Virus record (IMG/VR): IMGVR_UViG_3300010885_007305 | Span: 1 to 22,679 of that record | Length of the DNA stretch: 22,679 nt | Reading direction: 5' to 3' (one strand) | Source of the DNA: a virus | In this document: positions 6,618 to 20,699 of the stretch, one piece after another | Layout of the letters: the number at the start of each line of letters is the position of its first letter | Numbering within the stretch: the stretch's first letter is position 1 | Position numbers and translations under genes: made by a program | The notes under the pieces: generated by a model | What the model was told of the DNA's origin: nothing | Databases searched by the model: none | Seen by the model: the letters and a program-made list of their open reading frames with translations, nothing else

Positions 6618-8669
6618 ATGGCGGATACAATCGGTCAGCGGGGCGTCCTGCGCGTCGTATCTCCAGCGCAACTTGAGACTGCGCTTCAGAAGCAGGATAA
6701 GGACCGCGCCGCTTCTCAAGTGGCTGAAGGTCCGGTGATGTCTAACCTTGCTGGGTATATGCGTACCCAGTTTGAGATGATGAAACAGCACCGTAATGAC
6801 GCCATGTCCGGCTGGTCGGAGCGCCTCCTAATCGCCCTGCGGGCGTTCAACGGGCACTACGACGCCACAAAACTAGCGGAAATTAGGAAGTTTGGTGGGT
6901 CTGAGGTTTACGCGCGCATCATTGCAATGAAGTGCCGAGGGGCGTCTTCGCTGCTCCGGGATGTGTATCTTGCTCCAGATCGTCCATGGGGTCTTGCTCC
7001 TCCCCAAGACCCGGACGTGCCTCCTCAGATTGTTGATAGCGTTCAGCAGCTTGTGCAGGTTGAGATTGCCTCCATGACTCAGGCAGGCATCCCACCGAAC
7101 CCGACAATCATCCGAGACCGTACTCTCCAGCTTATGGAAGCGGCGAGGGTGGCCGCTAAGGCGCGCGCTATCCAGCAGTCCAAAGTAGCTGAGGAGAAAA
7201 TTGACGAGATACTCTCGCAGGGTGGGTTCTATAAAGCTCTGGCTGAGTTCCTTGTTGACCTTCCCCTGTTCCCCTTTGCCTGCATCAAAGGGCCAACCGT
7301 GCGGATTGTGCCCACAGTTGTGTGGGAGAATGGCCAAGCAACAATTGCTCAGCAGCCCAAACTATTCTGGAACCGAGTATCACCATTTGATATTTGGTGG
7401 ACGCCGGGCGTATCTGACATCGAAGATGCTTCTGTTGTCGAGCGTACCCGCGTTACTCGTGCAGACCTGAACGATCTCCTTGATCTGCCGGGATACAACA
7501 CTGAGGAAGTTCGCGCTGTGCTCGATGAGTATGGTCGTGGCGGCATTGCTGATGATTGGGATACCACTGACAGCGAGCGCGCGGTCATGGAGAGCCGAGA
7601 GAACCCTCAGACAAATCGGTCTGGGATGATCTCCTGCCTTGAGTTCCATGGCAACGTCCAAGGGCGGATGCTTCTTGAATATGGCATGAGCGAGCAGGAA
7701 ATTCCTGATCCAATGCGCGACTACTTCGTACAGTCGTGGCTCATAGGCACGCATGTCATCAAGGTTCAGATGGCTCCGTCGCCCCGCAAACGGCACTCTT
7801 ATTTCATTACGAGCTTTGAGAAAGTGCCGGGTACTCCCGTGGGTAACGGGTTGCCGGACATCCTCAGCGACATTCAGGAGGTGGCAAACGCCTCTCTACG
7901 TGCGCTAGTCAACAATCTATCCATCAGCTCCGGGCCTCAGGTGGTTGTTAATGACGACCGACTGGCTCCTGATGAAGACGGAGAGGAACTGTATCCATGG
8001 AAACGCTGGCACGTTCAGTCTGATCCCATGGGCAATAACTCACAAGTTCCCATCAGCTTCTTTCAGCCGGTGTCCAACTCTCAGGAGCTTCTGGGGGTTT
8101 ATCAACAGTTTAACAATCTTGCCGATGAACTATCTGCAATCCCAAAATACCTCTCTGGGCAGGGAGCTGGCGGTGCCGGTCGTACAGCTTCTGGGCTTGC
8201 TATGCTTATGGGCAATGCCTCTAAAATCCTTCAAACCGTCGCAGCAAATATTGATCGAGATGTCCTTGATCCTTTGCTGACCCAACTCTTTGATATGCTT
8301 ATGCTTACCGATCAATCTGGCATGTTGACGGGTCAAGAGCAGGTTCGTGTGATGGGCGTCAACGTCGCCATTCAGCGCGAGACCCAGAGGGCTCGTCAGC
8401 TTGAGTTCTTGCAGATTACGGCTAATCCCATCGACGCCCAGATCGTTGGGCCTAAGGGTCGCGCCGCCATTCTGCGGTCTGTCTCTCAGACAATTGGACT
8501 TGATAGCGCCAGTATTGTTCCTACTGAGGACGCTATCAACAAGATGCAAGAGGCAGCGGCTGGCGCTCAGATGGCGCAAGCTGGGGCACAGGCGCAGGGT
8601 GCGCAGCAGGGGTCCAACGTAACGCAGGATATGGGTCCGAGGACAAATATAACTGGCGGCGCTGGTTAA
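6618..8669 (+). CDS. Portal protein
   Basis: Forms the dodecameric ring at the capsid vertex through which DNA is packaged and ejected and on which the head assembles. 683 aa, typical of large podovirus (P22-type) portals. Visible features: an N-terminal helical region, a clip/stem-like region with SPFDIWWTPGVSDIEDASVV (about residue 255-275), SYFITSFEKVPGTPVGNGLP (about 395-415), and the characteristic ELSAIPKYLSG followed by AGRTASGLAMLMGNASK (about 505-540), a pattern I associate with portals of this group. The C-terminus is Ala/Gln/Gly-rich and probably disordered or barrel-like. ATG at 6618 follows GAGGATA. It is the first gene of the plus-strand structural operon. Confidence 0.93.
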   Translation: MADTIGQRGVLRVVSPAQLETALQKQDKDRAASQVAEGPVMSNLAGYMRTQFEMMKQHRNDAMSGWSERLLIALRAFNGHYDATKLAEIRKFGGSEVYARIIAMKCRGASSLLRDVYLAPDRPWGLAPPQDPDVPPQIVDSVQQLVQVEIASMTQAGIPPNPTIIRDRTLQLMEAARVAAKARAIQQSKVAEEKIDEILSQGGFYKALAEFLVDLPLFPFACIKGPTVRIVPTVVWENGQATIAQQPKLFWNRVSPFDIWWTPGVSDIEDASVVERTRVTRADLNDLLDLPGYNTEEVRAVLDEYGRGGIADDWDTTDSERAVMESRENPQTNRSGMISCLEFHGNVQGRMLLEYGMSEQEIPDPMRDYFVQSWLIGTHVIKVQMAPSPRKRHSYFITSFEKVPGTPVGNGLPDILSDIQEVANASLRALVNNLSISSGPQVVVNDDRLAPDEDGEELYPWKRWHVQSDPMGNNSQVPISFFQPVSNSQELLGVYQQFNNLADELSAIPKYLSGQGAGGAGRTASGLAMLMGNASKILQTVAANIDRDVLDPLLTQLFDMLMLTDQSGMLTGQEQVRVMGVNVAIQRETQRARQLEFLQITANPIDAQIVGPKGRAAILRSVSQTIGLDSASIVPTEDAINKMQEAAAGAQMAQAGAQAQGAQQGSNVTQDMGPRTNITGGAG

Positions 8670-14774: not shown

Positions 14775-14987
14775 ATGTCAACCTATGCTGTCATCAATAC
14801 GGCCACCAACATCTGCGACAACGTCGTTGTGTGGGACGATACCCTTGGTCCGTGGACCCCGCCCGCAGGTCACTACATCATCAGCATCGACGGTTTAAGC
14901 GTCGGTATTGGCTTCTCCTATGACCCGGCCACAGGAATTTGGACCGCTCCTCCAAGCCCTGAAGAGCCCGCCACTCCCACTCAATAG
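14775..14987 (+). CDS. Small fibre-associated protein, 70 aa
   Basis: Start after AAGGAG. MSTYAVINTATNICDNVVVW, then GPWTPPAGHYIISIDGLSVG and IGFSYDPATGIWTAPPSP. The ending 'G-SYDP-TG-W--P' recurs in the 101-aa protein at 19245 (GYTYDPQNDVFYAPQP), so the two belong to the same small-protein type. It follows a glycine-rich fibre gene; a role as fibre chaperone or distal cap is plausible by analogy with tail-fibre assembly proteins, not shown. It ends in TAG inside TAGGAGG, the ribosome binding site of the next gene, and lies in the same frame as it. Confidence 0.75.
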   Translation: MSTYAVINTATNICDNVVVWDDTLGPWTPPAGHYIISIDGLSVGIGFSYDPATGIWTAPPSPEEPATPTQ

Positions 14988-14996
14988 GAGGCTGCC

Positions 14997-16133
14997 ATCA
15001 GCACTCTCAAGACCATCAACGTCATCCACCCCTCCGGCACGGTCAACAACATCGTCAACGATTCCGCTGGCAGCATCACTGTCGGCAACGATGTAATTGT
15101 CGTTAACGACATCGTTGTCGGGTTTTCCGGCACTGGATCAATCGCTACGACAACGCTGACGATCACAGCCTCAACTTCTGGCGCGCTTGCCATTGGCTCA
15201 ATCATCACCGGCACAGGAGTGACTGCCGGGACGACAATCACAGCCATTCTTTCAGGCTCTGGCGGCGTCGGAACATATACCGTCAGCGTGTCCCAGACTG
15301 TTTCTAGCACAACGATAACGTCTGGCTCGCTCACCGTAGCTGGCTCGTCCGTTTCCGGGTCGAGCGGAACAAACCTTCAGAACCGACTCTGGACCGGGTT
15401 CAGCGCCACGGGATCTATTGGCCCGTCTTCGACTACAATGACAATCACGGCTGTCTCAGGCGGCCTGTTGACGGTTGACTCCGTCATCACTGGCACGGGT
15501 GTGACTGCGGGGACGAAGATCGTAGCGCAGTTGACTGGCTCGTTTGGATCAACGGGAACCTACACTGTTAGCGCGTCTCAGACCGTTGCCAGCACAACCA
15601 TCTCATCCACTGGCGGAAGTTGGACATGCCCCGCTGGCGTGACGCAGGTTCGTGCGACGGTGATAGCGGGGGGTTCTGGTGGGTACAACGATGGAACAAA
15701 TCAGAACTCTGGGGCGAGCGGCGGTGCCGCAGTTGGTTATTTTACAATAACACCGACAACAGTTTACGCTGCAACAGTTGGAGCCGCCTCTGCTAGTGTC
15801 ATCACCGGCACATCAGCGTCTGGCGGATCAAGTTCATTTGGCTCCCTCCTATCGGCCACTGGGGCAAGCGGCGGATCTAGTGCCGGTGGTGGGGGAGCTG
15901 GATCTGGGACTGGTGGAAATTTAATAAACTCTAGCGCAAGTGTTATCACAATCCCTTGGTTCAAAATTGCTACTGCTACAGCTATTTCGGGTACAGCAGC
16001 TAAATACTGGTCCCAAATTGCTACTAACAATCAGCATCTCGCAGGCGCTGGCGGGGGCGCGGGCACTGGTGGATCTTCTGGATCTGCGCTCGGCGGCATT
16101 GGCGGCATCGTTTACATCGAATATGTGGGGTAA
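14997..16133 (+). CDS. Fibre protein B with apparent ATC start
   Basis: 378 aa if started at ATC 14997. GGAGG lies five bases upstream, and the first residues read (I/M)[18 protein letters not shown], the normal opening of a fibre protein of this kind (MSTLK...). No ATG, GTG or TTG exists in frame until GTG 15219, which lacks a ribosome binding site and would cut off 74 clearly coding residues. Then: beta module 1 (about 46-110; [12 protein letters not shown]...[15 protein letters not shown]...[16 protein letters not shown]), beta module 2 (about 138-203), [20 protein letters not shown] (207-226), and a glycine/serine-rich distal domain. The upstream gene is in the same frame behind one TAG. 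Either a rare start codon, or a mutated or misread ATG. Confidence 0.8.
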
Positions 16134-19610: not shown

Positions 19611-20699
19611 GTGGCATTTGGGGGTGGAATAGGAACAGCTCCAATTGGAAGTTTTCCCATCAGTGGAAGCATTGGTGGGACATCCTACGTTCTTGTTGCT
19701 GACTCTGGAGTTTACATACAGGTTGGTCAAAACGCTTTAGTCTATCGTGGGTTCACTCTATCAGTTATTTCTGGGACTTATGCCTACGCTGGCATTGATA
19801 CGGCGCTTACAGCTAGTAGGCGCATTACTACTAATGCTGCTACTTACTCCTACACAGGTTCCCCTGCGCTTCTTTCTGTTGGGCGAAAAGTATTTGCCGC
19901 ATCTGCTACGTATAGCTACGTAGGAAGTGATGTAGCACTTATAGCTAGTAGGCGCATCCCTATAGATGCCGCTACTTACTCCTATGTAGGTGCTCCCGCG
20001 TTCCTTTCTGTTGGGCGGAAAGTATCTGCTGCTTCAGCTTCGTATAGTTACGCAGGTTCTAATGTAATATTTATATCTAGCAGGAACCGTCAATTTGTTG
20101 TTGACGCTGGATCGTATTCACTAGTAGGAAGTGCTGCAAATTTACAGAGATTATACTTACTTACAGCAGAAAAAGGCGGGTATTCAGTATCTGGTTCTCC
20201 TTCTACTATTTACGCCAATAGAAAATTTTATGTATCAAATACAAATTATAGTTACGTCGGTAAACCAGTATCTATTAAACCATCCAGAAACATACCGGCT
20301 GATGGAACGAACTATACGACTATTGGGTTACCAGCTAGTATTATAAGGCACGCTCAACTTCCCATTGAGACTGTTGCTTATGGTGTTGCAGGGATACCAG
20401 CTAGATTGTTCCTATCCCAGTTCTTCACTGGAGACATGGAATATATCTATGTTGCTCAAGAACTTAACACCATAACAATACCAAAGACGCCAGAGTACGA
20501 CCCATACGAGGTATTTGTTGCACAAGAGCAGCATACAATGACCATCTCTGAGCCTGCCGACCGAAACGCCACCTATCGAAAGACAATGGCAGTAGCGCCG
20601 GAGTGGCAGATAATGTATGTTCCTTCAAAAGACTTCACAGCCGAAGACCCCGTTCATACGGACCTTCAGACCCAACCTAGACAGAGGGCACTCGTATGA
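19611..20699 (+). CDS. 22-residue tandem-repeat virion protein
   Basis: 362 aa, GTG start with AGAGGAG upstream; the N-terminus is MAFGGGIGTAPIGSFPISGS. From about residue 55 to 275 there are about ten repeats of 22 residues, consensus 'A-x-Y-S-Y-x-G-x-x-A-x-L-x-x-S-R-(R/K)-(I/V)'. The early repeats alternate in pairs (44 residues, 132 bp; e.g. AGCTAGTAGGCGCAT at 19811 and again at 19943), showing recent duplication. The C-terminal 85 residues (EYIYVAQELNTITIPKTPEY, EVFVAQEQHTMTISEP, TYRKTMAVAPEWQIMYVPSK) hold three related beta hairpins. The gene, mainly 20080-20560, is more AT-rich than its neighbours. Likely a fibrous or decorated tail component; exact role unknown. Confidence 0.8.
   Translation: MAFGGGIGTAPIGSFPISGSIGGTSYVLVADSGVYIQVGQNALVYRGFTLSVISGTYAYAGIDTALTASRRITTNAATYSYTGSPALLSVGRKVFAASATYSYVGSDVALIASRRIPIDAATYSYVGAPAFLSVGRKVSAASASYSYAGSNVIFISSRNRQFVVDAGSYSLVGSAANLQRLYLLTAEKGGYSVSGSPSTIYANRKFYVSNTNYSYVGKPVSIKPSRNIPADGTNYTTIGLPASIIRHAQLPIETVAYGVAGIPARLFLSQFFTGDMEYIYVAQELNTITIPKTPEYDPYEVFVAQEQHTMTISEPADRNATYRKTMAVAPEWQIMYVPSKDFTAEDPVHTDLQTQPRQRALV

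Follow-up and report, generated by a model that had tools for sequence, protein, structure and literature searches.

The tail-fibre gene of this virus appears to begin at an unusual start codon, AUC, directly behind a leader that also precedes AUC or AUU (AUY) in genes of many other, uncultured phages. The window, that is, the whole stretch analysed, covers the entire virus record (22,679 bases). The favoured reading, with a probability of roughly 0.7, is that translation truly initiates at AUY, probably using fMet, and that a strong, fixed leader makes this workable. Judged from sequence, leader plus AUY is most likely a conserved element of many phages, serving one gene per contig as far as seen, usually a structural gene. 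This seems to be a genuine mode of starting phage proteins that has apparently been overlooked; among the papers listed by searches of the open-licence PMC literature, none describes such an element of phages in its title or the abstract shown.

The leader, AATAGGAGGCTGCC, occupies positions 14983–14996 of the plus strand and is of the type seen ahead of AUY starts in other phages. It includes the Shine-Dalgarno hexamer AGGAGG (14986–14991) and a 5-nt spacer, CTGCC (14992–14996), which is followed by the AUC codon (14997–14999). The fibre gene extends on the plus strand from 14997 to 16133 and comprises 378 codons plus TAA (16131–16133). Its product is assigned to the phage tail fibres by a match to PHROG phrog_38233 (E 6.6e-13); no Pfam match is obtained at E 0.001. 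The initial annotation described the frame as open from the TAG at 14985–14987 to 16133, lacking ATG, GTG or TTG before 15219, with ATC 5 nt past the Shine-Dalgarno; this is confirmed to the base. The first canonical in-frame codon, GTG at 15219–15221 on the plus strand, is codon 75 and is not taken as the start. The start proposed at AUC 14997 holds up in the family, which has ATG, GTG or TTG at exactly that codon in 39 of 47 rows. Upstream, also on the plus strand, a 70-aa gene (MSTYAVIN..., 14775–14987) ends at the same TAG and, as had been stated, shares the fibre frame and is separated from it by this single stop. The family of the upstream gene has 26 loci, 24 of them on contigs other than this virus's. 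A scan for Shine-Dalgarno plus AUH starts yields one other candidate in the window, ATA 8683, which overlaps ATG 8685 in a different frame. The starts listed for the other plus-strand genes, all ATG, GTG or TTG according to the initial annotation, come from an ORF list restricted to those three codons.

Relatives of the fibre gene were searched for in viral contigs by the conserved codons after the start, with start and leader left free. The resulting 45 stretches, the window and one phage record form 47 rows, with the starts ATG 36, ATC 6, ATT 2, GTG 2 and TTG 1. AUU or AUC is thus found at the homologous N terminus. The AUY rows represent five viruses. The window, L109 and L110 stand for one of them, and L146 and L148, which have the same start and were recovered from a single metagenome, are counted as another; the remaining three are L153, L108 and L136. 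In the four viruses besides that of the window, all found without use of the leader, the codon is ATT in L108 and L136 and ATC in L146 and L153. The motif AATAGGAGGC[T/G][A/G]CC stands directly ahead of AUY in 7/7 AUY rows with upstream DNA (five viruses; L148 begins at its ATC and is outside this count) and in 0/39 non-AUY rows; the leader of the TTG row (L139) is GATAGGAGGCTGAT. The different virus L108, a 59,952-base contig first found by scanning for an AUH start on this fibre N terminus, has ATT at the same codon behind TAATAGGAGGCTACC. An 80-bp block with the leader, the start and the first 22 codons (14983–15062 on the plus strand of the window) is 85% identical between the two, and no blastn match extends past either side of it. 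A scan requiring ATAGGAGGC (12 stretches) gives a sixth virus, L154, with ATT at the same codon, as well as the near-identical L155–L159, which have a similar leader and only 8 open codons.

At the sequence level, leader and AUY occur together at the homologous start, and the protein is under selection from codon 2. Comparison of codons 2–14 among five AUY fibre genes gives, over all pairs, 60 base changes that are synonymous and 21 codons in which the amino acid differs; random change is expected to be about 25% synonymous. Synonymous change is far more frequent than that, so these codons are translated.

It had been suggested that ATC could be a sequencing error or a mutation silencing the fibre gene. 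ATG is indeed the usual codon at the fibre start (36/47 rows), and yet this explanation is hardly tenable. The identical ATC is present in two other contigs of the same virus, from samples possibly not independent, with 0 differences across two 7.1-kb stretches. ATC is present in 3300027759_000923, 100% identical to the window over 12,847 bases, and in 3300009183_002768, 99.8% identical over 9,732 bases. Four further viruses carry AUY at the same codon behind the same leader, and the fibre protein is under selection. ATC is therefore neither an error nor the sign of a dead gene.

The two frames stand in register behind a single TAG in this virus, and amber read-through would join the upstream protein to the fibre in a product of about 450 aa. 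Such a fusion, raised earlier, is highly improbable and is contradicted by the relatives, in which a single conserved in-frame stop between the frames is not found: L108, L136 and L153 have TAA TAG in frame before AUY, the upstream gene of L108 is in a different frame, and where the fibre follows in relatives of the window's gene pair, its start is ATG and its frame a different one. Elsewhere in the window TAG acts as a normal stop. Code reassignment was rejected, TAG, TAA and TGA all ending genes in the window; a frameshift or a downstream start was rejected on the double stops, the closed other frames and the homologous starts.

Initiation at AUY behind the leader is also indicated outside the fibre family. 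Viral contigs were scanned for AATAGGAGGCNNCCATY irrespective of downstream sequence, which gave at least 119 stretches; TAG is always 9 nt upstream of the scan sites. At least 60 codons are open at 94 of 117 leader-plus-AUY sites examined (near-duplicates included) and fewer than 60 at the other 23; as a control, 11% of 15,094 arbitrary TAG+9 positions in the same loci are open for at least 60 codons. Products assigned by PHROG or Pfam are a major head and protease fusion (L163), tail sheath (L165), portal (L238), virion or DNA-ejection protein (L266), minor tail protein (L228), SU10-type adaptor (L206), capsids (L185, L207) and fibres (L178, L256). The tail protein of L177 aligns with residues 2–216 on positions 2–216 of a 228-position profile. 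An Hsp70 gene on a viral contig (L168, 3487–5049, minus strand) seems to start at AUC behind the same leader, its profile beginning at residue 3. Profiles align from residue 1–4 in the portal, tail, fibre and Hsp70 products. No PHROG match was obtained for 5 of 19 proteins searched (window's own excluded).

Homologues carry ATG at the same codon in the fibres L277–L280, the capsid of MW202675, the capsids L154, L298 and L332 and the portal of Pseudomonas phage JG012. For the IQVIDRS capsids and for IASLDD the homologue's ATG is one codon to either side; in some other families the homologue alignment does not cleanly reach the start. In some related contigs the gene with AUY is a different one: the tail gene with AUU in L256 has an ATG homologue in L162, and the AUC gene of L162 has an ATG homologue in L256. 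Two capsid families, of 6 (5 distinct) and 3 sequences, have leader plus AUY throughout. The five distinct IQVIDRS proteins are 84–95% identical in amino acids, with the codon unchanged at 45–61% of conserved residues, and all have the leader with ATT. Across both families (84–95% amino-acid identity) the same codon is used at 45–62% of conserved residues, and the upstream 46 nt are only 13–39% identical. By this comparison the element has been kept in homologous genes while synonymous sites and upstream DNA diverged; since the capsid sets were gathered by exact pattern, relatives whose leader has decayed would be missed. The proposal that the AUC codon tunes down the fibre protein is not supported, since the same leader plus AUY begins major capsid genes. 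Major capsid proteins are required in large amounts. AUC does not necessarily imply low expression.

The 52 distinct AUY families are divided equally between AUC (26) and AUU (26); L204, L268 (ATT then ATG) and L190 (ATG at codon 4) are doubtful members. At position –4, which the search left open, T or G stands in 45/52 AUY families versus 21/46 of the AUG families that share the leader (p 3e-5). In 40/52 AUY families the second residue is P, S, A, G, T or C. Outside the fibre family, the search for AUY sites used the exact leader pattern, which in part dictates how tight the leader looks there. With the third codon base left free behind the same leader, at least 119 stretches were obtained, and among the 119 listed 78 have AUG, 40 AUY and 1 AUA. 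The 101 sites examined (in brackets, open for at least 60 codons) are ATG 78 (65), ATC 11 (9), ATT 11 (9) and ATA 1 (0); the remaining 18 stretches are in already known loci and have only C or T at the third base. Tolerance of near-cognate codons does not by itself predict this preference for C or U, because AUA is nearly absent though alphaproteobacterial infC genes apparently use it. Outside the leader, in 2.94 Mb of loci, strong Shine-Dalgarno sequences stand before 251 ATG and 10 AUY codons, the latter below the per-codon average of other codons. One credible AUY start is found there, that of a T4-type neck protein gene (L130, 3394–4290, Pfam E 6e-32), which seems to start at AUU behind GGGAGGCTAAC. 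AUY and AUG genes behind this leader show no difference in the structure predicted around the start, and unusually weak mRNA structure was rejected as a cause on the same grounds. As a separate observation, a 686-codon tape-measure-like frame (LTDLATLG..., L202, plus strand, 1808) has an apparent CUG start behind CATAGGAGGCCGCC.

In place of the usual near-cognate fMet pairing, initiation at AUY might use a dedicated route, with a factor specific to the leader or an initiator reading AUY in the manner of a GAU anticodon. AUC and AUU are equally frequent, AUA is seen once, at a non-coding site among 101, AUY is tied to the leader, and AUG with the exact leader occurs in 0/42 AUY contigs. According to PMC10158994, IF3 accepts AUU and AUC in vitro if the initiator carries a GAU anticodon. 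The route is nevertheless unlikely. A single tRNA (Met, CAT) was found in 20 pieces of 8 possibly incomplete AUY records, and no tRNA with a GAU anticodon there or in 28 loci, on which a phage-borne initiator tRNA was rejected; a phage bS21 was likewise rejected, with a homologue in 0/42 contigs. Only one leader-plus-AUY site is present per contig. The looser pattern AGGAGGNNNCCATY occurs exactly once in each of 44 virus records chosen for holding such a site (the starts in L190 and L196 being unconvincing), and the single copy may mean nothing, so rare is the element. That AAUAGGAGGC[U/G]NCC-AU[C/U] is a dedicated phage start signal, beyond a strong Shine-Dalgarno with a weak codon, is a tentative possibility. 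It is likewise only tentatively proposed that such a signal selects a third-position pyrimidine, serves major capsid genes and is placed on gene families that vary by phage. A once-per-genome, pyrimidine-selecting signal would point to a licensing factor or a decoding mode during infection.

Re-initiation, in which ribosomes ending the upstream gene at a UAA or UAG within the leader restart at AUY, accords with the window, where the leader TAG is the stop of the upstream gene. At 36 of 72 coding AUY sites, an upstream frame in register and at least 50 codons long ends at the leader. The other 36, e.g. in L165, L163, L210 and L185, are without such a frame, and AUG genes with this leader have it more often (40/50), which makes re-initiation quite improbable as the explanation. 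Coupling may help, as an optional addition to the element and not its defining feature. In an M13-derived reporter, termination-coupled re-initiation is reported to be inhibited by excess IF3, less so with a Shine-Dalgarno (PMC2268962). The phage starts resemble that system in adjoining an upstream stop and differ from it in the half of coding AUY sites (36/72) without an in-frame 50-codon upstream frame ending at the leader.

Under direct initiation at AUY, the leader AAUAGGAGGC[U/G]NCC, with its perfect AGGAGG and 5-nt spacer, would position the 30S subunit with AUC or AUU in the P site. Initiator tRNA-fMet would start at this codon despite the third-position mismatch, and the N-terminal residue would most likely be fMet. 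The tolerance of AUY would be owed to the strong leader. The start is probably sensitive to IF3, as may fairly be expected since the known AUU and AUC starts of infC are described as policed by IF3 (PMC5472188) and AUU read by a CAU anticodon is reported to be weak in vitro (PMC10158994).

Near-cognate starts comparable to the phage element are those of infC, ATT in E. coli and ATC in Streptomyces (PMC5472188). The infC gene is a cellular regulatory gene (IF3 autoregulation), whereas the phage element, with a single fixed leader and without AUA, is found on structural genes; alphaproteobacterial infC genes have AUA, AUC or AUU candidates behind other leaders. Streptomyces sigR, reported as a conserved gene with a GTC start repressed by IF3 and mis-annotated in genomes (PMC5472188), is similar in having a non-canonical start in a conserved gene. 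It differs in the codon (GTC, not AUY), in encoding a cellular sigma factor and in having no leader common to gene families.

The element is about as frequent in bacterial genomes as chance would give. AATAGGAGGCNNCCATY is present in 1/385 alphaproteobacterial genomes, and ATAGGAGGCKNCCATY in 7/299 Pseudomonadota genomes versus about 8 expected (a rough estimate from rounded genome sizes). Four of 10 distinct bacterial AUY sites are open for at least 60 codons (longest 240), as are 6/9 bacterial AUG sites with the same core leader. A possible exception is the 240-codon frame (L369), the sole bacterial AUY site searched against families, with a methyltransferase domain from residue 87; it might be a real cellular or a hidden viral case. 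The leader was not seen at alphaproteobacterial infC (31 genomes, 30 loci, 22 of them with candidate starts), which may not be the host's class, and mimicry of an infC leader was rejected on these 22 loci. Many of these infC genes (L414–L443) apparently start at AUA behind a Shine-Dalgarno (e.g. IARRPH...), fewer at AUC or AUU.

A search of 50,697 cultured-phage records covered two of the 17-nt variants that are possible. One variant matches once, over 16 bases, at what is an ATG start in Klebsiella phage RCIP0099, and the other nowhere; this says little, because only about one match each is expected (a rough guess from the metagenome rate).

Start prediction is described as leaning on ATG, GTG and TTG only (PMC5472188), so AUY-started capsid, portal, sheath and fibre genes tend to be called short or missed. 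If AUY with a fixed 14-nt leader expresses a major capsid protein, the view of such starts as weak, IF3-policed exceptions needs revision.

Three further observations were made. L136 (10044, plus strand) and L128 (reverse-complement position 7689) share their upstream gene, with high similarity over roughly 450 bases; their fibre starts differ, TAATAGGAGGCTACC-ATT in L136 (strong Shine-Dalgarno, weak codon) versus TAATAGGATACGCGCC-ATG in L128 (weak Shine-Dalgarno, strong codon). For the capsid-like ORF of the window listed from TTG 10608, ATG 10623 (MAFPNAGSG), with GGGAG just upstream, is the likelier start. Positions 19770–20084 of the window, within the gene at 19611–20699, contain a direct repeat with an offset of 132 bp and 75% identity.
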